From IMG/VR virus record IMGVR_UViG_3300020430_000105, positions 1 to 21,962 of that record: a stretch of 21,962 bases of DNA, one strand, 5' to 3'. Positions 11,221 through 19,163 of this stretch are shown one piece after another. Positions within the stretch are counted from its first letter, which is position 1. Each line of letters opens with the position of its first letter. The notes beneath the pieces were generated by a model. It searched no databases, had not been told where the DNA came from, and was given only the letters and a program-made list of their open reading frames with translations. Made by a program: the position numbers and the translations under genes. This stretch comes from a virus.

Positions 11221-11365
11221 TACGCAGTATCTTGTGTTAATCAGGCACAATACTCTCTGACCAGTAGAACGCCAGACCTGTGTCTATCTTTAATACTGGC
11301 GTGACCAAGCCGAGTCTAGTTTCATATCAACAGTTTCAATATATCTATACCTTCTGGGCTCCGCA

Positions 11366-11390
11366 CTATGCTTTTTTCGGGAAAGCATAG
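11366..11390 (+). promoter_or_regulatory. Leader hairpin 1, before the 84-aa gene
   Basis: A perfect 9-bp stem CTATGCTTT (11366-11374) / AAAGCATAG (11382-11390) encloses the loop TTTCGGG. It ends 16 bases before the ribosome binding site AGGAG (11406-11410) of the gene starting at 11418. It has no U-tract, so it is not an intrinsic terminator. A second structure, GGAAAGC (11380-11386) with GCTTCC (11393-11398), would compete with it. Confidence 0.6.
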
Positions 11391-11417
11391 ATGCTTCCGC
11401 TACAAAGGAGATATATT

Positions 11418-11672
11418 ATGAATACTGTTGATTATAAAGAAACTATCGACTGTGGCTTATGTCACGAGCCAGTAGATAAAGAAGATAGAGCTCAGGTCCA
11501 AGGGCGTTCCAAGACTGGTGCGATATATTATTGGCCTGCCTTCATACACCAAGATTGTATATATAATCGTGGTCGTATTTCTATCTATGAAGCTCATAGA
11601 AATAGTCGTACCTATATAGCTAGGGCTAAAGCCAAGCTAGAAAAGGTAAATCAAATGGAATTAAAAATATGA
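11418..11672 (+). CDS. 84-aa zinc-binding protein, first gene of the plus-strand operon
   Basis: The start is ATG at 11418, with AGGAG eight bases upstream; an upstream in-frame ATG at 11391 sits directly behind the leader hairpin without a ribosome site. The protein has a CxxC pair (C12, C15) and an HxxC pair (H44, C47: FIHQDC), the spacing of a small treble-clef-like or LIM-like zinc knuckle. The C-terminal third is basic and helical (YEAHRNSRTYIARAKAKLE). The 97-aa product of 11925 shares this layout and looks like a paralogue. Being first in the early-type operon and zinc-binding suggests a host-takeover or regulatory protein, but that is inference. It overlaps the next gene by four bases (ATGA). 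Confidence 0.8.
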   Translation: MNTVDYKETIDCGLCHEPVDKEDRAQVQGRSKTGAIYYWPAFIHQDCIYNRGRISIYEAHRNSRTYIARAKAKLEKVNQMELKI

Positions 11673-11827
11673 AAAATTATATTCAATCCACTTGGCTTTA
11701 TTATTGGATATGGATTCCTATTGCTTGTGCTATTGAATCCAGAAGCAATCTATATCAAGTATATAGCGAGCTTTGGTTAATCAATAGCATCAAGCTAGGA
11801 AAATATAAGCAATGGTTAGGTGGATAA
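11669..11827 (+). CDS. 52-aa small membrane-type protein
   Basis: ATG at 11669 overlaps the stop of the preceding gene (ATGA), and the frame runs 52 codons to TAA at 11827. The product, MKNYIQSTWLYYWIWIPIAC at the N-terminus, has a strongly hydrophobic, tryptophan- and tyrosine-rich stretch at residues about 8-22 that could span or lie on the membrane, followed by a polar, basic tail. Function unknown. Translational coupling to the zinc protein is the main support that it is expressed. Confidence 0.6.
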   Translation: MKNYIQSTWLYYWIWIPIACAIESRSNLYQVYSELWLINSIKLGKYKQWLGG

Positions 11828-11836
11828 TGACTTTAT

Positions 11837-11873
11837 ATATAAGTATGTTCTTTATCGGAGAACATACTTATAT
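11837..11873 (+). promoter_or_regulatory. Leader hairpin 2, before the 97-aa gene
   Basis: A perfect 15-bp stem ATATAAGTATGTTCT (11837-11851) and its complement (11859-11873) enclose the loop TTATCGG. GATAAT, one base off a consensus -10 box, lies at 11823-11828, so a transcript could begin right at the foot of this stem. The ribosome site AAAGGAAA (from about 11905) lies downstream and is free. Confidence 0.65.
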
Positions 11874-11924
11874 CTATGAAAGTCATAGATATATTAGCTA
11901 TATAGAAAGGAAATGTGATTACTT

Positions 11925-12218
11925 ATGGCTAAACCAATGAATCCAGTTGTATGTGGTATAACTGGCGAAACACTCACCGAGTGGAATCAAAGGACATTTG
12001 TCCAACGATATATCAATGGTACGTTACAAACGCTACCATTGTATCTTGATATCGAAGCAGTCTTGGACTTGCATCGACAATCAGAAACATATATCGAAAA
12101 GAAAGCCAAAGAAAATGCTTTCGTCAACGCTGGGAACGTTAGTGACCCAGAAGTTGAAGAGATGGCAGATGGCGATGCTATGAATGACGAATACGATAGT
12201 GACAACACTATTGATTAG
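11925..12218 (+). CDS. 97-aa acidic protein, paralogue-like to the 84-aa zinc protein
   Basis: The protein starts MAKPMNPVVCGITGETL and ends in a strongly acidic tail (DGDAMNDEYDSDNTID). Its middle aligns by eye with the 84-aa protein: CGITGET against CGLCHEP, an R-x-x-V-Q stretch, and LHRQSETYIEKKAKE against AHRNSRTYIARAKAKLE. Only one of the four zinc ligands (the first Cys) remains, so if they are related this copy has lost the metal site. The spacing of about 13 bases between AAAGGAAA and ATG is long; no better start is seen. Function unknown. Confidence 0.75.
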   Translation: MAKPMNPVVCGITGETLTEWNQRTFVQRYINGTLQTLPLYLDIEAVLDLHRQSETYIEKKAKENAFVNAGNVSDPEVEEMADGDAMNDEYDSDNTID

Positions 12219-12239
12219 ATTAATTAGTATTATAATTTA

Positions 12240-12276
12240 TGTATATACTGTCGTTTTTCGGACGACAGTATATACA
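12240..12276 (+). promoter_or_regulatory. Leader hairpin 3, before the 51-aa gene
   Basis: A perfect 15-bp stem (12240-12254 with 12262-12276, core GTATATACTGTCGT and its complement) encloses the loop TTTTCGG. A perfect TATAAT stands at 12231-12236, though without a good -35, which would put the transcript start at the foot of the stem. The ribosome site GAAAGGA (12281-12287) follows directly and is unpaired. Confidence 0.7.
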
Positions 12277-12293
12277 ATACGAAAGGATAAACT

Positions 12294-12449
12294 ATGGAAT
12301 ATGCAACAATTGGCGTAGGATTTCTTACAATTCTGTTTGCGAAATTTGTATATGATTTACAAGCTAGATTAGATAAAGAACCACCAAAGACGCCATTACA
12401 ATTACAAGCTGAAGAATATCAGAAAATTTTGCCACAGGTTTGGGAGTAA
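12294..12449 (+). CDS. 51-aa single-span membrane protein
   Basis: ATG at 12294 has GAAAGGA seven bases upstream, a strong start. The N-terminal segment (ATIGVGFLTILFAKFVYDL, residues about 4-22) is a clear membrane helix; the rest is polar and proline-rich (KEPPKTPLQLQAEEYQKILPQ), predicted cytoplasmic or periplasmic. I do not recognise it. It is followed two bases later by the 64-aa gene, so the pair is probably co-translated. Confidence 0.65.
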   Translation: MEYATIGVGFLTILFAKFVYDLQARLDKEPPKTPLQLQAEEYQKILPQVWE

Positions 12450-12451
12450 AC

Positions 12452-12646
12452 ATGGGCGAGATGAAAAATTTAGTTGATACATTACAAAATGTAGAAAACG
12501 CATTTGAGGAATTATCAAAGTTTGTAGTAGAAACAAGAACACGATTGGACGCTATAGAAAAACAAATAACTATGCTAGATGAATACCTAGTTAAAGCGCA
12601 AAGTAAATATATGCAGGAAGGAATACCAGGTGATTTACATGAGTGA
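12452..12646 (+). CDS. 64-aa coiled-coil protein
   Basis: The start is ATG at 12452 (MGEMKNLVDTLQNVEN), with GGGAG five bases upstream inside the end of the previous gene; an upstream TTG at 12440 is less likely. Residues 4-55 show regular hydrophobic spacing (LVDTLQNVENAFEELSKFVV, then LDAIEKQITMLDEYLV) typical of a helical coiled coil with few other features. It probably forms a dimer or a hairpin with a partner. Function unknown. It overlaps the 55-aa gene by eight bases. Confidence 0.75.
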   Translation: MGEMKNLVDTLQNVENAFEELSKFVVETRTRLDAIEKQITMLDEYLVKAQSKYMQEGIPGDLHE

Positions 12647-12806
12647 TTTATCAGTAAATGAAGCTGATGGTATTGTTCTGATAGCTGAATTAGAAAAACG
12701 TTTTTCTTTCTATCCAGTAATCGTAACAAACGAAGATGGCGAACAAGAAATAAAAGCCATAATACCTTTAGTTAAAACTGTAATACAAACACCAGAGGAG
12801 GAATAA
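12639..12806 (+). CDS. 55-aa hypothetical protein
   Basis: ATG at 12639 lies eight bases inside the end of the coiled-coil gene (ATGAGTGA), and the frame runs 55 codons to TAA at 12806. The product reads MSDLSVNEADGIVLIAELEK at its start, then alternating hydrophobic strands (FSFYPVIVTNEDGEQEIKAI) as in a small beta-rich domain. It ends in the bases GAGGAGGAATAATG, so its own last codons provide a strong ribosome site for the next gene. Function unknown. Confidence 0.65.
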   Translation: MSDLSVNEADGIVLIAELEKRFSFYPVIVTNEDGEQEIKAIIPLVKTVIQTPEEE

Positions 12807-13021
12807 TGCAAAAACATGACGTCTATGAAATGGTTGACCAAACAGGTAAAAAAGATGAGAACTGTTTAACTGTTGATTTCTATTTCGAGTCAGATGTAAC
12901 TAAAGACGAAGCTGTAAGTCAAATAGATTTACTAGCTATGTTAGCTGATAACAATGACAAATTTACTTTTTTTAGTCATAGAGCAGCTATATTTACTAAA
13001 TCTAGATGGGCAGATGAATAA
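12806..13021 (+). CDS. 71-aa acidic hypothetical protein
   Basis: ATG at 12806 overlaps the previous stop (TAATG) and has GAGGAGGA just upstream, the strongest ribosome site in this cluster. The protein (MQKHDVYEMVDQTGKKDENC...) is acidic with alternating beta-like and helical segments, and ends SRWADE. Its last bases, TGGGCAGATGAATAA, contain the start of the next gene with an eight-base overlap. Unknown family. Confidence 0.75.
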   Translation: MQKHDVYEMVDQTGKKDENCLTVDFYFESDVTKDEAVSQIDLLAMLADNNDKFTFFSHRAAIFTKSRWADE

Positions 13022-13217
13022 ATTTAATACAGTCAAAACTTTATTAGATAATGATGTAGAGGTTTGTAAACATTTAACAAATATCGATGACATAAGAAAA
13101 ATAATTGCAAGATTAAAAACAGATGAATTTAATTATTTAATTTATAGAAACATCTGTAATTGCAATTTAAGTAAAAGACAACATTTTTCATATGAGAAAG
13201 ATTGGGCAAGTGAATAG
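13014..13217 (+). CDS. 67-aa hypothetical protein
   Basis: I place the start at ATG 13014, which overlaps the previous stop as ATGAATAA with GGG just upstream; a longer in-frame version from 12954 would overlap the neighbour by 68 bases. The product (MNKFNTVKTLLDNDVEVCKH...) is helical and has three cysteines (one near residue 19 and CNC around 48-50). It ends KDWASE, much like the SRWADE end of the gene before. Function unknown. Confidence 0.7.
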   Translation: MNKFNTVKTLLDNDVEVCKHLTNIDDIRKIIARLKTDEFNYLIYRNICNCNLSKRQHFSYEKDWASE

Positions 13218-13347
13218 TTATACTTGTTGGATTTGTGATGGTCAATTTCAAGGTTGGCCTAACAATGCAGAACCAATATCAGTTGGTGTATGCTGCGACC
13301 AATGTAACTACGAATTTGTAATACCAGCACGATTTGGGGAATACTAA
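13210..13347 (+). CDS. 45-aa zinc-ribbon mini-protein
   Basis: GTG at 13210 starts in the overlap GTGAATAG with the previous stop, preceded by TGGGCA exactly as at the previous junction. An alternative ATG at 13192 would add six residues but has no ribosome site. The product has C6-x2-C9 (TCWICDG) and C29-x2-C32 (CCDQC), with 19 residues between the pairs, a compact four-cysteine zinc ribbon. Such mini-ribbons often bind nucleic acid or a host polymerase, but here that is inference only. It is the last gene before a structured non-coding gap. Confidence 0.65.
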   Translation: MNSYTCWICDGQFQGWPNNAEPISVGVCCDQCNYEFVIPARFGEY

Positions 13348-13352
13348 AATTT

Positions 13353-13485
13353 GCTACCTACAGCTAGCTTGTATAGACCATATGCTACAAATGTAGTGTC
13401 TGTAGGTAGCTTGTAGTACATAGGTTAAACTTGTGTATTACAAGCTACGCAAGTAGCAATTCATATACAACCGCCCTGTTGTATA
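13353..13485 (+). ncRNA. Candidate structured RNA with nested inverted repeats
   Basis: Four inverted repeats follow each other. GCTACCTACAG (13353-13363) pairs with CTGTAGGTAGC (13400-13410) around a TTGTA/TACAA inner stem. GCTTGTA (13409-13415) pairs with TACAAGC (13439-13445). GCTAC-GCAA-GTAGC (13444-13457) is a short stem with a GNRA tetraloop. TATACAAC (13464-13471) pairs with GTTGTATA (13478-13485) around CGCCCT. No open frame covers the stretch. It may be an independent small RNA or the leader of the 158-aa/AAA/VWA operon. Confidence 0.4.
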
Positions 13486-13493
13486 CGTACTAA

Positions 13494-13562
13494 GTAAAGA
13501 AGTAAGAGAGGTAGAGTTTTGAAATCTTTCACAATAATGCCTACCTTTCTTTACTTCTTTAC
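13494..13562 (+). promoter_or_regulatory. Long alternative stem competing with leader hairpin 4
   Basis: GTAAAGAAGTAA (13494-13505) followed by GAGAGGTAG (13506-13514) can pair with 13541-13562 over about 21 base pairs, with one bulged T and one G-U pair. This uses up the left arm of the hairpin at 13544-13578, so only one of the two structures can form at a time. When the long stem forms, the ribosome site of the 158-aa gene is freed. Confidence 0.45.
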
Positions 13563-13578
13563 GCAAAGTAAAGAAAGG
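13544..13578 (+). promoter_or_regulatory. Leader hairpin 4, sequesters the ribosome site of the 158-aa gene
   Basis: A perfect 13-bp stem CCTTTCTTTACTT (13544-13556) / AAGTAAAGAAAGG (13566-13578) is capped by a C-A mismatch and the 7-nt loop TTTACGC (13558-13564). Unlike the other hairpins, its right arm contains GAAAGG, part of the ribosome site AAAGGAA (13574-13580) for ATG 13585, so the closed hairpin should lower translation. Confidence 0.6.
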
Positions 13579-13584
13579 AATCAT

Positions 13585-14061
13585 ATGGATAAAAACAAAG
13601 GTATACCATCAGCATTGGTACATGTACCTGCAAAAGAACAACAAGAATATGTTGTGCAAATGGCATTTGAACTACCAGATGTTGATAAAGAACATAAACT
13701 TACTGTTCATTTTGATGACACACAAGGATATAGTTTTCATATTTATGCATCAAGTATTATGGAAGCTATTGATAGAGCTTGGCAAGTTCTTATGGTTATG
13801 AAAGCAGAACTGGTAACTGGTTATCCAGCTATCTTAGAAGAAATTGATGACGATGATATTACTTATCATTCGTTGCATTCATTTAGGGCATTTTTGCTTG
13901 ATAAACATATCATAAAAAAATGGATGTTACTTGAGCCAATGAGCATGCAAGTATGCTTATTAAGTGACGAAGAAAAACTAAAAGACTTTACAGCAGATGT
14001 AGTTTATTCAGAAATGAAAAATACTGTATCAGATGTAGAGGACTTTTTAAAAGATAAATAA
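13585..14061 (+). CDS. 158-aa protein, first gene of the AAA/VWA operon
   Basis: The start is ATG at 13585 (MDKNKGIPSALVHVPAKEQQ), with AAAGGAA about five bases upstream; a TTG 66 bases earlier lies in the leader and encodes an implausible extension. The protein is acidic with a beta-rich first half (KLTVHFDDTQGYSFHIYASS) and a helical second half. An acidic run EEIDDDD lies near residues 86-92. I do not recognise a family. It sits 17 bases before the AAA+ ATPase gene and shares its leader RNA, so it may be a partner, adaptor or substrate of that ATPase; this is inference from position. Confidence 0.75.
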   Translation: MDKNKGIPSALVHVPAKEQQEYVVQMAFELPDVDKEHKLTVHFDDTQGYSFHIYASSIMEAIDRAWQVLMVMKAELVTGYPAILEEIDDDDITYHSLHSFRAFLLDKHIIKKWMLLEPMSMQVCLLSDEEKLKDFTADVVYSEMKNTVSDVEDFLKDK

Positions 14062-14078
14062 TACAGAAAGGAGCTAAT

Positions 14079-14807
14079 ATGTCAACAAATTGTTGGGATT
14101 TAGTAGAATCTGTGTTAGGGCAATCTCGTAGAATACTGTTGTACGGACCGCCTGGCACAGGCAAAACATACGCTGCAGTTAAAACTAATACGCCTACTGC
14201 GTTTAGTAAATCAGCAGGAAAAGAAATAGATAATATCTATCAAATCACTATGACAGAAGATACTGCTAGTGCAAATTTAGAAGGTTTTTACAGACCTAGT
14301 AGCACTGGTATGTTTGAATGGCATGATGGTATTGCAATACAGTCATGGAAAAATGGTGGTCGTTTGGTTATCAATGAGATAGACCATGCTTCACCAGACG
14401 CTATGACATTCTTACATGCAATACTAGATGACCAGGATATTGCTATGCTAACACTGAATAATGACAAGAAAGAGACTGTAAAACCTAAAGATGGTTTTCA
14501 AGTAGTTGCTACTACAAACAGTCCACCTGAATCATTACCACTAGCATTGAAAGACAGATTTCCTGTCAAGATACATGTTGATACGATACATCCAAAAGCC
14601 ATGGAAGGTTTTCCAGAAAAATGGTGGCAAACAATCAATGATACTTCTCTAGTAGAAGATGCTGAGGAACGTATATCTATCAGAGCATGGCGTGAGTTCT
14701 TTGATTTACAAGAGAAAGGCTTCAGCGAAGAAGAAGCTGGCAAGCTTATATTTGCTGATAAAGCTGAAGAACTTGTAGATGCAATCACACTTGCAGCCAG
14801 TGAGTAA
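14079..14807 (+). CDS. MoxR/CobS-like AAA+ ATPase
   Basis: This 242-aa AAA+ ATPase starts at ATG 14079 with AAAGGAG seven bases upstream. Walker A is GPPGTGKT (residues 23-30), Walker B RLVINEID (95-102), sensor 1 VVATTNS (142-148) and the arginine finger LKDRF (157-161). The ANLEGFYRP stretch (65-73) after the first core strands is typical of the MoxR/CobS branch. Known relatives work as hexameric remodellers with a von Willebrand A-domain partner, for example CobS with CobT in cobalt insertion or MoxR in enzyme maturation. Here the partner gene follows with overlap. The protein has only a short lid, so it is a minimal family member. Its substrate in the phage is unknown. Confidence 0.9.
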   Translation: MSTNCWDLVESVLGQSRRILLYGPPGTGKTYAAVKTNTPTAFSKSAGKEIDNIYQITMTEDTASANLEGFYRPSSTGMFEWHDGIAIQSWKNGGRLVINEIDHASPDAMTFLHAILDDQDIAMLTLNNDKKETVKPKDGFQVVATTNSPPESLPLALKDRFPVKIHVDTIHPKAMEGFPEKWWQTINDTSLVEDAEERISIRAWREFFDLQEKGFSEEEAGKLIFADKAEELVDAITLAASE

Positions 14808-16224
14808 GGCATATCCATACCCAGAAGTAGTTACAGGTGAGGCATGGACTGTACATGGTACACCAGATAACAAGCTAAATGGTACTACAGACAATCTAAA
14901 CAAGGTAATGACTGTACCATTGAATCGTGAATGCGAAAACTGTGGTATTAATCATGCTAGACAAATACGTAGACATGAGCTAGGTCATGCTAAATGGTCA
15001 CCTAAAACTATGGGTAAACTTAAACCAGGTGTACGTCCAGAGGCAATACATTTGCTAGAGGAGGTACGTATTAATAAATTACTATTTGAAGCTGGATTAG
15101 GTACAACTGATTGGATGGTATGTGAAGAACTTGTTCGTGCTAGAACTAGACAACTAATTGAAAAAGGTAGTATTGCTGAATTGATTATGTATGGTTTGGC
15201 AGCTTATTCTTTATCACTTAATCCAGACCAAAACAAAAGTTATTATAATTCAGTACCAGGTCGTGAATACAAAGTATTTACAGATGCAATGGCAGATGCA
15301 ATGAATGAAACAGAATTTACTACATTGCGTAGAGCAGATATTAAATATGCTCGAAGTGTTGTAGTTGCATATGTAACTAGACTTGTAGAAGGATATTATA
15401 GATTTGGTAATATTTCGTTCAGACGAGTACAAAAACTTGCTGAACCATTATCAGACATTCTGAATATGTTTCTTGATAGACCAGATGAACAAGAAATATT
15501 TGAATCAGATGATATTGATGGCGAAGGTGAATCAGAAAATCAAGATGGTGAATCAGTAGAAGAAGGTGGAATAGGTGATGGTGACCTAGAAAAACGTATG
15601 CGTAGAGCATTAGCTGAAAGAATGACATACAGCACTACTACTGAAATGGGTTATTGGGGTGATATGACTATAGTAAGACCACCATTGCCAGTTAATCTAA
15701 CAGCAAGACTAAAAGCTGGTAGAGCTTACAGACCTGCTGATTTTGGTTACAATCCTAAATATATCAACAGATTTTGTATTGACAAAAAGATATTCAAACA
15801 AAAACAAACAGTACTAGGCGGTACTATTTTGATTGATGCATCTGGTTCAATGTCATTTGATGGTAAAGATATACTTGATATATTGCAGCTGTTACCTGCA
15901 GCAACTATTGCAATGTATAATGGCTATGGAAATTCAGGTTGTTTACGTATTATTGCAAAAGCTGGACATAGGGTACATGAAGACTATCTAGATTCACATA
16001 CAGGTTCAGGTAATGTAGTAGATGGTCCAGCCTTAGATTGGTTATCAACAATGCCACCTAGAAGAATATGGGTATCTGACATGCATGTATTTGGTGGTAG
16101 TGGTTCTACAAATGGTTACAATTTACTCAAATATTGTTATGACATGGTTACTAAACACAGAATTATTAACCTTAAAAACATAGAAGAAGTTAAGGAACAT
16201 GCAATAAAATTAAATATGATATAG
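14800..16224 (+). CDS. HEXXH metallopeptidase-like/VWA-domain partner of the AAA+ ATPase
   Basis: I favour GTG 14800 (MSKAYPYPEVV, 474 aa), which overlaps the ATPase stop as GTGAGTAA; ATG 14779 would add seven residues. The N-terminal half has HELGH (residues 59-63), a zinc-protease HEXXH motif, with two cysteines before it (C45, C48) and LLEEVRIN near 85-92 supplying a possible third ligand (E88). An acidic linker (about 228-263) leads to a VWA domain with the MIDAS motif D346-A-S-G-S350 and a later aspartate at 427 (WVSDM). The layout is like the metallopeptidase-plus-VWA proteins (DUF2201 type) and CobT that pair with MoxR/CobS ATPases. Whether it cleaves protein or only binds metal cannot be told from sequence. 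Confidence 0.85.
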   Translation: MSKAYPYPEVVTGEAWTVHGTPDNKLNGTTDNLNKVMTVPLNRECENCGINHARQIRRHELGHAKWSPKTMGKLKPGVRPEAIHLLEEVRINKLLFEAGLGTTDWMVCEELVRARTRQLIEKGSIAELIMYGLAAYSLSLNPDQNKSYYNSVPGREYKVFTDAMADAMNETEFTTLRRADIKYARSVVVAYVTRLVEGYYRFGNISFRRVQKLAEPLSDILNMFLDRPDEQEIFESDDIDGEGESENQDGESVEEGGIGDGDLEKRMRRALAERMTYSTTTEMGYWGDMTIVRPPLPVNLTARLKAGRAYRPADFGYNPKYINRFCIDKKIFKQKQTVLGGTILIDASGSMSFDGKDILDILQLLPAATIAMYNGYGNSGCLRIIAKAGHRVHEDYLDSHTGSGNVVDGPALDWLSTMPPRRIWVSDMHVFGGSGSTNGYNLLKYCYDMVTKHRIINLKNIEEVKEHAIKLNMI

Positions 16225-16513
16225 TAAGGAAGTGATATTGTATGCAAATACAACAAAGTTTCCTTTCCTTTGGATATCGCAAGAAGTAGTTTAGGTAGAA
16301 TAGAGTGCAAAGAGAGTTTGCAACAAGGTATTTTATTCATCATGTCAACAGTGACCTATAGTGAACACTACCTAAACTATCATCATTCATAGCTACTACA
16401 GCTCCCGCCTATCGTGTCTTCGCTCCCTAGAACCTAGTCGCTGTGACACTCTACGGCTCAAGCTTACGTTGCTATTCATTTAAATCATTGACATATATAA
16501 AAATGAATATAAA
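16225..16513 (+). ncRNA. Non-coding gap with candidate structured RNA
   Basis: A TTGTAT-GCAA-ATACAA hairpin (16238-16253) is followed by a perfect 12-bp pair TAGTTTAGGTAG (16287-16298) / CTACCTAAACTA (16368-16379). The latter encloses TGCAAA/TTTGCA (16306-16322) and GTCA/TGAC (16344-16355), together a three-way-junction shape. Beyond it lie GTGTC (16414-16418) / GACAC (16445-16449) around CTAG-AAC-CTAG, and TATTCATTT (16473-16481) / AAATGAATA (16501-16509) flanking a TTGACA (16488-16493). The 16380-16480 part is visibly richer in GC than its surroundings. No gene of useful length was found and no tRNA fold fits. Confidence 0.4.
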
Positions 16514-16765
16514 ATGAAAAGTATGAAAGATGTAGAAAGCTTATTGAAAGAAGCAGAAAACGGAAAAAAATCTGCTACTTTTGATAGAATCACAGAAGAA
16601 GCTATGCCTTTCTGGCAGGGATGTATCGACCGCGTTAAATCTGGTCACAAATTAAAACCATATGTAGTTCATAGGTTATTACGTGAGCAATATGATATAA
16701 AAATAAGTGAATCAGCAATACGCAAATATTTTACGGACTTGATAGAAACGCATGGCAAAAAATAG
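16514..16765 (+). CDS. 83-aa helix-turn-helix DNA-binding protein
   Basis: A small, basic, helical protein. Residues about 46-70 (VVHRLLREQYDIKISESAIRKYF) read as a helix-turn-helix, with ISESAIRKYF as the recognition helix. This resembles DNA-binding N-terminal parts of small terminase subunits or phage regulators. The start is unclear: ATG 16514 has no ribosome site, and ATG 16523 (MKDVESLL) has only a weak GAAAAG. It overlaps the metallophosphoesterase gene by 14 bases, so the two are probably made together. It could regulate the palindromes seen at 11065-11220 and 17821, or serve in DNA processing with its neighbour; both are guesses. Confidence 0.7.
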   Translation: MKSMKDVESLLKEAENGKKSATFDRITEEAMPFWQGCIDRVKSGHKLKPYVVHRLLREQYDIKISESAIRKYFTDLIETHGKK

Positions 16766-17816
16766 TAAAGAAGTAGATAAGCTTATTGCAGAAGCTGAAT
16801 CTATCATAATACAAGAACTAAAAGCAGATAATCTTAGATTGCTTAAACAAGTAGATAAGCTTAAAAATAAAAAAGCTGATTTAATTGAAGCAATGTTTGA
16901 TGCAGTCAGAATGAATTTAGCTACATGGGCTAAACCTAAAATACCTATTCCTACTTTAAGTAAAAAAAATAAAAACGAAGAAGTAGCAGTAGCAATATTA
17001 TCTGACATACAATTAGCTAAAGTAACACCTGATTATAACAGTGATGTAGCGGAAGAACGTGTCGTAGCATATGCACATAAGATAGTGGAACTTACTAATC
17101 TGCAACGTAATGCACACCCAGTAAACAAGTGTGCTGTATTGGTTGCAGGTGATATAGTAGAAGGAGAGCTTATATTTCCTGGTCAATCACATTTGATTGA
17201 TGCTAGTTTATACAAACAAGTAACAATTGATGGACCAAGGATATTAACACAGTTTTTTGACATATTATTGGCTAATTTTAAAGAAGTAGAAGTTACATGG
17301 GTAATTGGTAATCATGGTTCACTTGGTGGAAGAGCACGTAAAGACTACCATCCAGATAGCAATAGTGACAGAATGCTAGGTAAAATTATGCAAATGGTGT
17401 ATGAAAAAGATAAAAGAATATCATTTCATGTACCAGACAGTACGACAGAAGACCATTGGTATGCTATTGCAAACCTTGGTAAAGGCTGCAAATTCTTCGT
17501 ATGGCATGGTGATAACGTTAGAGGACATTCGGGATTCCCATGGTATGGCTTTGGTAAGAAGCTGTTAGGATGGAAAGCATTAGCATCAAGAGAGTTAATG
17601 CCTGATTTTGACTATGCTATAGCTGGACACTTCCATACACCTACAACAATGTACGTAAATGACGTACGTTTATGGGTAAATGGCAGCACAGAAAGCTATA
17701 ACAGTTATGCAATGGAACAGTTAGCAAGCATGGGTAGACCATGTCAATGGCTATTATTCTGTAAACCAGGGCATGGTGTAACTGCTGAATACCTTGTAAA
17801 GCTAGATAAAGTGTAG
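16752..17816 (+). CDS. Calcineurin-like metallophosphoesterase, SbcD-type, with altered motif I
   Basis: A 354-aa protein with an N-terminal coiled coil (about residues 5-50) and a metallophosphoesterase domain from about 78. The motifs in order are SDIQ (84-87), GDIVEG (133-138), GNHG (186-189), WHGDN (251-255) and GHFH (292-295). These make the two-metal site of nucleases and phosphatases such as Mre11/SbcD. The usual D-x-H of motif I is D-I-Q here: the codon is CAA, so a metal-binding histidine is replaced. The other ligands are intact, so activity is plausible but with a changed metal site. Placement before the Rad52-like gene suggests DNA end processing, and phage relatives are often annotated as DNA repair exonucleases. 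Confidence 0.88.
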   Translation: MAKNSKEVDKLIAEAESIIIQELKADNLRLLKQVDKLKNKKADLIEAMFDAVRMNLATWAKPKIPIPTLSKKNKNEEVAVAILSDIQLAKVTPDYNSDVAEERVVAYAHKIVELTNLQRNAHPVNKCAVLVAGDIVEGELIFPGQSHLIDASLYKQVTIDGPRILTQFFDILLANFKEVEVTWVIGNHGSLGGRARKDYHPDSNSDRMLGKIMQMVYEKDKRISFHVPDSTTEDHWYAIANLGKGCKFFVWHGDNVRGHSGFPWYGFGKKLLGWKALASRELMPDFDYAIAGHFHTPTTMYVNDVRLWVNGSTESYNSYAMEQLASMGRPCQWLLFCKPGHGVTAEYLVKLDKV

Positions 17817-17820
17817 GTAT

Positions 17821-17835
17821 ACTATATATAGTATG
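17821..17835. repeat. Distant copy of the ACTATATATAGT palindrome
   Basis: ACTATATATAGTATG here is identical over 15 bases to 11065-11079. In this copy the palindrome extends to 16 bp (ATACTATATATAGTAT). It sits between the phosphoesterase stop and the ATG of the 49-aa frame, where a regulator could block or start transcription towards the Rad52-like block. Confidence 0.45.
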
Positions 17836-17982
17836 GATATAAAAGAAAATTCTCCAAGAATAGTATCTGTTGAATACGCTGGAGTAGGTAGTAAACCTTA
17901 TTTTGTTGTTAACAATAACAATGAAATTAAATTTATACCTATAGAACCAGGAGTTACTATGCTTAGAGATGTAATTAAATAG
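17833..17982 (+). CDS. 49-aa possible small protein
   Basis: The frame starts with ATG at 17833 (MDIKENSPRIVSVEYAGVGS) and ends with TAG at 17982. The predicted product alternates polar and hydrophobic residues like a small beta sheet (PYFVVNNNNEIKFIPIEPGV). There is no ribosome site, and the ATG overlaps the operator-like palindrome, which could mean a leaderless message or that the frame is fortuitous. The amino-acid composition looks natural. It ends just before leader hairpin 5. Confidence 0.45.
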   Translation: MDIKENSPRIVSVEYAGVGSKPYFVVNNNNEIKFIPIEPGVTMLRDVIK

Positions 17983-17983
17983 C

Positions 17984-18020
17984 TTATATTTTTTCTTTTT
18001 TTCGCAAAGAAAAAATATAA
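17984..18020 (+). promoter_or_regulatory. Leader hairpin 5, before the Rad52-like gene
   Basis: A perfect 15-bp, almost purely A-T stem TTATATTTTTTCTTT (17984-17998) and its complement (18006-18020) enclose the loop TTTTCGC. It ends six bases before the ribosome site GAAAGGAAG (18026-18034). A tract of A, not T, follows the loop, so it is not a terminator for plus-strand transcription. Confidence 0.6.
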
Positions 18021-18038
18021 TTATTGAAAGGAAGTTAT

Positions 18039-18572
18039 ATGAATAACGATAAACTGTTGTCTCCATTTCCAAAGGAGCTTGTAAAGAAAGCACCTGCTGG
18101 TAAGTTCGGTGATTATGTACCACATGCTAATTATGTTGAAAGATTACGTGATAGTGGCGTTCAATATAGTTGGTCTTGTGAACCAGTATATGGAACATTT
18201 AATGGAGAGAAAAGAATTGTTGGAGCTAAAGGTACCATAGCTATTGAAGGTATGGGTAAGTACGATGGCTTCGGTGATGTTGATACTTTCAAACTTAGTA
18301 ATTCTAAGTTTAATGATGGTAGCAACTTAAAAGACGCAGAGTCAGATGCCTTCAAACGTGCATGTATGCGGTTTGGTCTGGGTGTTGAGCTATGGACAGG
18401 TAGCAAGCAGACAGAAGAAGAGGCTAGGGCTGAGGTAGATGAACCTGAAGATAAGGTAGAAGTTACTAAGGTCGACATGCGTAAGAAAGAAAATAAACCA
18501 TCTCCTGAAGATATCAAGAAGATGGAAGCAATAATGGACAGTATCGTTGGTACTGTCGGAGAGGATAACTAA
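18039..18572 (+). CDS. Rad52/Rad22-like single-strand annealing protein
   Basis: The start is ATG 18039 (MNNDKLLSPFPKELVKKAPA, 177 aa), with GAAAGGAAG five bases upstream; a TTG at 18024 is part of the ribosome site. The N-terminal domain has the Rad52/Rad22 pattern: YVPHANYVERLRDSGVQYSW (26-45), then a beta sheet with KGTIAIEG, and the signature DAESDAFKRACMRFGLG (99-115). The C-terminal 55 residues are charged and probably flexible. Phage members of this family form rings that anneal complementary single strands during recombination and replication. The zinc-ribbon protein and two paralogous genes follow in the same operon. Confidence 0.88.
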   Translation: MNNDKLLSPFPKELVKKAPAGKFGDYVPHANYVERLRDSGVQYSWSCEPVYGTFNGEKRIVGAKGTIAIEGMGKYDGFGDVDTFKLSNSKFNDGSNLKDAESDAFKRACMRFGLGVELWTGSKQTEEEARAEVDEPEDKVEVTKVDMRKKENKPSPEDIKKMEAIMDSIVGTVGEDN

Positions 18573-18880
18573 TGCAATACACAATAGGACAGGTATTAGA
18601 TACATTACCTGAATCAATGCAAGCAAAAAAAGCAAGTGCATACTTGTTTGAAGAGCAATATAAGAACATACTAGATGCTACTCCTAACAAATGGGTAGCT
18701 ATGGATGTTGAAGACATTACTGGATTAGATAGAAAAGGAACTGAATATATAAAAAAGGTTGGTAAATACTATCACAGAGTAAAGTCTTGGAATAAAAAAT
18801 ATGATGATTATGAATTTAAAAACATAAGAACTGAATCTCAATTCATCATGTTTGGAAAGAGAGTAATCAATGGAATATAA
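18572..18880 (+). CDS. 102-aa protein, first of a tandem paralogue pair
   Basis: ATG 18572 overlaps the stop of the Rad52-like gene (TAATG). The product begins MQYTIGQVLDTLPESMQAKK and contains TPNKWVAMDVEDIT; these blocks recur in the next gene (DTLPESM, PNKWV). It is basic and looks alpha/beta, with a C-terminal strand-like end (SQFIMFGKRV). No known family is recognised. Coupling to an annealing protein suggests a helper in recombination or DNA binding. Confidence 0.8.
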   Translation: MQYTIGQVLDTLPESMQAKKASAYLFEEQYKNILDATPNKWVAMDVEDITGLDRKGTEYIKKVGKYYHRVKSWNKKYDDYEFKNIRTESQFIMFGKRVINGI

Positions 18881-19163
18881 AGTAGGAGAAACATTTGATA
18901 CTTTACCAGAATCTATGGCTAGAGGTACTGGAGGCTCTCATAGAGCAGTATTCTTGGTAGAAAACTATGCAGAAAGATTAACTGCAGAGCCAAACAAATG
19001 GGTTGTATTAGATACATTAGATGATTTAACTAAGTCTAAATTATATACACGTGTATCTAATTACAATAAAAAATACAATAGTAAGGGATTTGAATTTGCT
19101 AGAATTGTTACTGAAACAAATCAAATATTTTTGGGAAGATATAATCCAGATTTATTAGCATAA
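18870..19163 (+). CDS. 97-aa protein, second of the tandem paralogue pair
   Basis: It overlaps the preceding gene by 11 bases. MEYKVGETFDTLPESMARG parallels the start of the 102-aa protein, AEPNKWVVLD parallels its ATPNKWVAMD, and both have a later NKKY stretch followed by a strand ending in FGK or LGR. The two are best explained by gene duplication and divergence. This copy has a G-rich insertion (GTGGSHR). Function unknown; the next gene begins in its stop codon (TAATG). Confidence 0.8.
   Translation: MEYKVGETFDTLPESMARGTGGSHRAVFLVENYAERLTAEPNKWVVLDTLDDLTKSKLYTRVSNYNKKYNSKGFEFARIVTETNQIFLGRYNPDLLA

Follow-up and report, generated by a model that had tools for sequence, protein, structure and literature searches.

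The coat-protein operators of MS2 and PP7 consist of a stem and a small apical loop by the start site, with one operator per genome and a lineage-specific pair of loop and coat protein. For the start-associated repeats of actinophages, we know of no function assigned since their description in 2011. In cluster K mycobacteriophages, these repeats (ESAS) have a 17-bp conserved arm consensus and a variable spacer of 4–13 nt, and they occur in many copies and in one orientation upstream of non-structural gene starts, with a subcluster-specific consensus and an unknown function (PMC3203893). Microbacterium cluster EG phages carry 8–10 copies of intergenic inverted repeats 14–22 bp before start codons (PMC7302621). 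In the gene 43 operators of T4 and RB69, the top of the hairpin is identical and the hairpin length differs between the phages (PMC3014915). Here, we analyzed a 21,962-base virus record of IMG/VR (IMGVR_UViG_3300020430_000105; hereafter the window), in which hairpins stand in the leaders of early genes. This hairpin family is real and more general than the five copies first noticed in the window. We consider, at a probability of about one half, that the hairpins may be RNA operators of early genes, whose loop would be read by a lineage-specific trans-acting factor controlling translation.

The hairpins resemble ESAS in location, in the non-structural class of the genes, in orientation, in a group-specific consensus and as inverted repeats just before the ribosome site. 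However, the arms vary and pair perfectly here and the loop is conserved, whereas ESAS has conserved arms and a variable spacer. The likeness to the cluster K repeats, suggested by an earlier reading of the window (the sequence-only reading), thus holds for location and gene class, while the anatomy is the opposite. No motif resembling the 13-bp cluster K SAS (GGGATAGGAGCCC) was found at the ribosome sites of the window leaders. The Microbacterium EG repeats lie at a similar distance to starts and also at genes of one genome end, but they have one conserved arm (GATCAACC NN GGTTGATC) around a 2-nt centre, like a classic palindrome, whereas the arms here are free. Microbacterium EF and EG phages both have related layouts (PMC7302621), but there the motif or the arms are conserved in sequence. 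The gene 43 operator is likewise an RNA hairpin, located ahead of the ribosome site of an early replication gene, and its conserved loop is recognized by a phage protein; it serves one gene autogenously, whereas a set of genes has a common loop here. A conserved loop on a replaceable stem, as in the gp43- and MS2-type operators, was found in this family. Unlike the MS2 and PP7 operators, several hairpins occur per genome, in double-stranded DNA phages, and a 5′ bulge is not general: among 126 distinct loops, 32 had a 5′ bulge, 22 a 3′ bulge and 56 none. By analogy, the family is best read as working like a set of translational operators, and we do not assign it to any named family. A search of Rfam 15 with the window and six relatives gave no gathering-score match, only sub-threshold miRNA matches, and few loops fit the C(UNCG)G apex of UNCG tetraloops (TCTACGGG in relative L043). 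A literature search, largely without subscription papers, found no description of these hairpins.

The window consists of a leftward structural arm, with the terminase and its neighbours, and a rightward early block from ~11.4 kb. All five hairpins lie on the + strand of the early block at the positions given in the sequence-only reading. Hairpin 1 (11366..11390; 9-bp stem, loop TTTCGGG) is in the leader of an 84-aa zinc-finger gene and sits within a larger folded leader (~11338–11417). Hairpin 2 (11837..11873; 15-bp stem, loop TTATCGG) follows a −10-like GATAAT at 11823–11828 and ends ~50 nt upstream of the start codon at 11925, with further structure in between. This structure occupies 11874–11924 of the leader of the 'CGITG' gene (CTATGAAAGTCATAG), and the distance from hairpin to start is also long (43–59 nt) at the CGITG leaders of many relatives. 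Hairpin 3 (12240..12276; 15-bp stem, loop TTTTCGG) follows a TATAAT at 12231–12236, and its Shine-Dalgarno (SD) sequence, GAAAGGA at 12282–12288, is unpaired. Hairpin 4 (13544..13578; 13-bp stem) belongs to the leader of p158, and hairpin 5 (17984..18020; 15-bp stem, loop TTTTCGC) comes immediately after the stop of the preceding open reading frame, with a free SD at 18026–18032. The ribosome sites of the five leaders are ordinary GAAAGGA or AAAGGAG. Both −10-like boxes are present as described, and the absence of a U-tract behind any of the five hairpins agrees with the view that they are not terminators. Hairpin 4 had been read differently: its loop comprises 9 nt (CTTTACGCA) instead of 7 nt, because the C and A flanking the quoted heptamer are unpaired, and it contains its ribosome site (GAAAGGA, 13573–13579) instead of standing upstream of it.

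The stems of the five hairpins have no common sequence. In first-order shuffles of the window, stems of 8 bp numbered 4.8, those of exactly 9 bp 1.05 and those of 12 bp 0.1, and no stem reached 13 bp; the 13-, 15-, 15- and 15-bp stems are therefore far above chance. Hairpin 1 is near chance on stem length by itself, so that the claim of perfect 9–15 bp stems is secure for the four longer ones, though the leader of hairpin 1 is strongly folded. Against dinucleotide shuffles, the folding z-scores of leaders 1–5 were −4.2, −4.7, −6.0, −4.0 and −2.7 (−4.18, −4.72 and −5.95 for leaders 1–3; −2.67 for leader 5).

Relatives were collected by scanning viral contigs with the VWA, terminase and single-strand annealing protein (SSAP) sequences, which gave ~225 loci and 114 after dereplication at 97% identity. 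Genes in the relatives were called with a simple purpose-written script, by which some genes are missed or misplaced. The relatives do carry such hairpins: the scan of the dereplicated loci (1.5 Mb) detected 342, about nine times the 39 in shuffles of the same sequence. Among 302 unique hairpins, 260 were intergenic, and only 2 of these 260 lay in convergent gaps; together with the absence of a U-tract behind the five window hairpins, this departs from intrinsic terminators. Genomes have four to ten hairpin sites. In eight larger contigs, hairpins with a nearby start were almost all in the early block and nearly absent from the structural genes, and a 32,268-base contig from this virus, whose searched proteins are 100% identical to those of the window, had no further copy of the window loop outside the early block. 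The restriction to non-structural gene starts that marks ESAS is thus found here as well. The proteins behind 181 hairpins belong mainly to a few families: p158 (38 genomes), p67 (32), SSAP (27) and p70 (11). The zinc-finger and CGITG proteins, two small Cys-containing proteins that cluster together, follow hairpins in 26 genomes.

The hairpins are placed relative to the start. All 61 hairpins in gaps of at least 100 nt were closer to the start than to the preceding stop. In nearly all of 64 distinct SSAP leaders, the hairpin lay between the preceding stop and the SD, counting some larger-loop hairpins that were missed by scoring and identified by eye. At the p67 and SSAP loci, the SD followed the hairpin at a median distance of 8 nt, whereas in 21 of the 38 orthologous p158 leaders it was within the 3′ arm. 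Hairpins that overlap or abut the ribosome site, as in the gp43- and MS2-type operators, are therefore found at p158, p67 and SSAP and not at every locus.

Across orthologous leaders, the hairpin is retained with stems that have little common sequence. The mean leader z-scores against dinucleotide shuffles, which are independent of hairpin picking, were −3.9 for p158, −3.9 for p67, −5.7 for p84, −2.5 for SSAP and −2.2 for CGITG, compared with −0.1 to −1.1 for nine control genes. When the hairpins were anchored at the loop, the nine innermost positions formed standard pairs in 96–99% of cases and in 45–57% with the arms exchanged; the extent of pairing is partly by construction, since the sample was chosen for good stems. 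The number of Watson-Crick types, two to four per stem position, and the leader z-scores are unaffected by this choice. In two alignable sets, a covariation tool detected 2 and 3 pairs that had changed on both sides with every cell paired, and the slid controls of both sets had no such pair. The pairing maintained in relatives through compensatory stem changes bears out the earlier proposal of selection on structure with a free stem sequence.

The loops, on the other hand, are shared by genome and not by gene. We compared 73 hairpins of 21 representative genomes by ungapped similarity and permuted the loops among genomes within each locus. Loops of different genes in one genome had a similarity of 0.644, loops of the same gene from different genomes 0.508 and all other pairs 0.509; no permutation out of 10,000 came up to the observed value (z 10.5, P ~1e-4, with the representative genomes treated as independent, an assumption that holds only approximately). 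For the same classes, stem similarity was 0.532, 0.519 and 0.486. Neither the arm consensus within a genome expected of ESAS (stems, 0.532 vs 0.486 for unrelated pairs) nor the variable spacer (loops, 0.644 vs 0.509) was found. Since the loops go with the genome across genes, they appear to be read in trans, and the case for a trans-acting reader rests chiefly on this result. Neither outcome that the sequence-only reading named as refuting it was seen in the relatives, which have such hairpins, compensatory stem changes and loop sharing inside genomes.

The loop is near-constant within a lineage, as first proposed for the window, and it is not fixed, since relatives use other loops. The loop is ATAAAAA in L068, CTGACTTAAAAGT is repeated in the contig of L079, loops like ATCCTTACGG occur in L010 and L022, those of L105 have a CTTATG core, and TTWTCGG is common to the window and the neighbouring L084 and L085. 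Across lineages, motif sampling without a shuffled control pointed to a loose oriented core, C-Y-U-W-Y-R (C/T, T/C, T, A/T, C/T, G/A), for which motif counts are the evidence used: of 166 loops, 76 contain pyrimidine-T-N-pyrimidine-G (26 expected) and 81 contain T-W-Y-G, which occurs in 7 of the reverse-complemented loops. The orientation of this core relative to the gene argues for RNA. Loops of several lineages (e.g., L009 at 9472, L060 at 3052 and L071 at 3095) also contain CCTT or TCCTT, which resembles an anti-SD sequence; CCTT occurs in 31 loops against 8 expected, with no specificity for the own leader. A loop-to-SD pseudoknot was rejected, since complementarity was 8.93 with the own leader and 8.88 with swapped leaders.

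We infer that the hairpins function at the RNA level, that the loop is bound by a factor and that translation is the controlled step, as well as the direction of this control; translation as the step is suggested by the position of the hairpins. The stem would need only to pair, presenting the apical loop beside, or together with, the SD. The loop would be recognized by a trans-acting factor that differs from one phage lineage to the next, and this factor, once bound, may block or free the ribosome site and so jointly set how strongly the early genes are translated. In the p158 leader, the hairpin itself hides the SD. In this layout, which is related to the start-associated repeats, evolution has separated the parts, with free stems and genome-shared loops, and the question of the reader becomes testable. 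If a loop-specific regulator exists, the group supplies a ready set of independent RNA-protein pairs.

A candidate for the reader is the zinc-finger protein (CxxC...HxxC; 11418..11672), which is encoded early with its own leader hairpin and for which no Pfam or PHROG family matched. The family is present in 62 dereplicated loci and in 33 of the 38 genomes with a p158 hairpin; in the other five, the p158 hairpin is <2 kb from the contig edge, which in our view probably explains the missing gene. In 31 genomes, loop distance at other loci correlated with the distance between zinc-finger proteins (r 0.18, P 0.003) and with that of CGITG (r 0.18, P 0.015), and the distances of p67, p158, MoxR, VWA and SSAP showed no correlation with it (P 0.20–0.74). 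One family member has an AlphaFold model (pLDDT 87.9) whose top matches are mostly eL24-type ribosomal proteins, a predicted likeness that we take as a lead only. We rejected p158 as a loop binder, since it is very acidic (net charge −12 to −27) and has no fold match. A host factor differing between hosts would explain the loop pattern equally well. More tentatively, the sequences leave room for a lineage 'password', in which the loop on the early leaders would be matched by a fast-evolving RNA-binding protein so that co-infecting relatives avoid cross-regulation; we regard this extension as possible but doubtful. If true, it would be, as far as we know, the first regulon of a double-stranded DNA phage to be defined by an RNA loop that is lineage-specific and shared across interchangeable stems.

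Several observations weigh against translational operators with a loop reader. At the CGITG, zinc-finger and p70 leaders, the hairpin lies ~30 nt from the SD. The MoxR leaders are an intermediate exception among the folding scores, with a z of −2.4 though no family hairpin was picked there. The stems inside one genome also resemble each other slightly more than expected (z 4.9), and hairpin duplication may therefore account for some of the loop sharing. As for the zinc-finger candidate, it correlates weakly with loop distance and is linked to its CGITG neighbour, and none of its fold matches is significant (best E 0.17).

The strongest alternative, which we consider unlikely but serious, is that the hairpins are mRNA stabilizers or processing sites, guarding a downstream 5′ end or marking a nuclease cut, with the loop read by the nuclease or a guard protein. 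The hairpins head sub-blocks of tightly packed genes, and those of SSAP and p67 lie a few nucleotides past the previous stop, ahead of a free SD. In addition, −10-like hexamers are enriched 6–11 nt upstream of the hairpins (31 vs ~10 per 6-nt bin, mostly at p67), so some hairpins may begin a transcript and could be true 5′ ends. These hexamers were found, ending 4–11 nt upstream, in 11 of 30 p67 leaders, 2 of 34 p158 leaders and 4 of 26 SSAP leaders, and the p158 and SSAP hairpins are intercistronic. Promoter placement before the hairpins in general was therefore rejected, and the suggestion that the hairpin forms the very 5′ end of the message applies to a minority. On the other hand, a plain stabilizer needs no loop that differs between lineages and is common to several genes, and the hiding of the SD in 21 of 38 p158 leaders also speaks against it.

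Control of transcription is improbable. Lambdoid boxB sites and N proteins differ between phages as a lineage-specific loop on a variable stem, and the hairpins, located between early genes, recall them as nut/boxB-like sites or factor-dependent terminators at which a lineage-specific protein would bind the loop of the nascent RNA and alter RNA polymerase. However, each genome contains four to ten of these sites and not one or two, they track the start codon rather than the stop, and convergent gaps hold only 2 of 260. It is more improbable still that no loop is selected and that the shared loops reflect recent ancestry through hairpin duplication within a genome, with the arms kept perfect by template switching. 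The slight likeness of stems within genomes would fit, but the stems, being constrained to pair, should then match at least as well as the loops, and the opposite was found (0.532 vs 0.644), along with an oriented loop core common across lineages. Sites acting in DNA, either inverted repeats extruded or single-stranded in replication or the sites of a dimeric DNA-binding protein, would suit perfect inverted repeats near recombination genes and are the least probable, since the arm sequence is not conserved as in a protein-binding palindrome, the loop core has a single orientation relative to the gene, and placement follows start codons.

Within the proposed operator set, the p158 leader suggests a two-state switch. 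Upstream of hairpin 4, AAGTAAAGAA (13492–13501) repeats part of its 3′ arm and lets an alternative fold win, and the surrounding segment (13492..13514, + strand) can pair with the 5′ arm as a possible anti-sequestor strand. Such an upstream copy of the 3′ arm scores higher in SD-sequestering p158 leaders than in the others (Mann-Whitney P ~1e-4; 18 vs 17 leaders, which are not phylogenetically independent), and a threshold test was non-significant (P 0.09). The p158 leader also contains a second, sequence-conserved element (13406–13448 in the window) with TAGCTTGTAGYACATA and TGTGTRTTACAAGCTA as inverted ends and an interior of 9 to 100 nt, in ~47 distinct versions; it has no Rfam match. In L053 (2500–2790) and L057 (8205–8495), the surroundings of this element are near-identical and the interiors entirely different, and certain interiors also turn up in distant phages, in a manner suggestive of cassette exchange. 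The 5′ end of the relatives' element (GTAGGTAGC) can pair with an upstream GCTACYTACATT or a downstream TACAAGCTATCTAT (window counterpart 13348–13543). From its sequence, the 200–280-nt p158 leader may thus form mutually exclusive helices ahead of the hairpin that hides the SD.

The viruses are an uncultured group of marine viruses of bacteria, whose host we leave open. No annotated phage in the searched collection has the VWA protein, the terminase is ~25% identical to those of Streptomyces phages, and none of 21 relatives has a WhiB gene. The closest cellular record, by the terminase (73% identity), is a contig of an Actinomycetota metagenome-assembled genome that resembles a binned phage and is a weak hint on the host. 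This 54-kb contig (PBPX01000048.1; L227 and L229) has a terminase near both ends (73 and 77% identity) and is perhaps a phage genome assembled beyond its length, or two related phages.

The other genes of the early block are also on the + strand. The 97-aa CGITG protein (11925..12218) is encoded by an early gene conserved in the phage group, and a 51-aa small protein (12294..12449) is headed by hairpin 3. The acidic p158 (13585..14061), whose function is unknown, is the first gene of the MoxR/VWA block, followed by a MoxR-type AAA ATPase (14079..14807; AAA_5, E 2.7e-17) and a protein with a VWA-like DASGSM motif (14779..16224), one of the queries used to find relatives. The SSAP (18039..18572; phrog_3290, E 1.8e-10) lies behind hairpin 5. 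Right after it, two adjacent small early proteins (18572–18880 and 18870–19163) look like tandem paralogues, with DTLPESM near the start of both.

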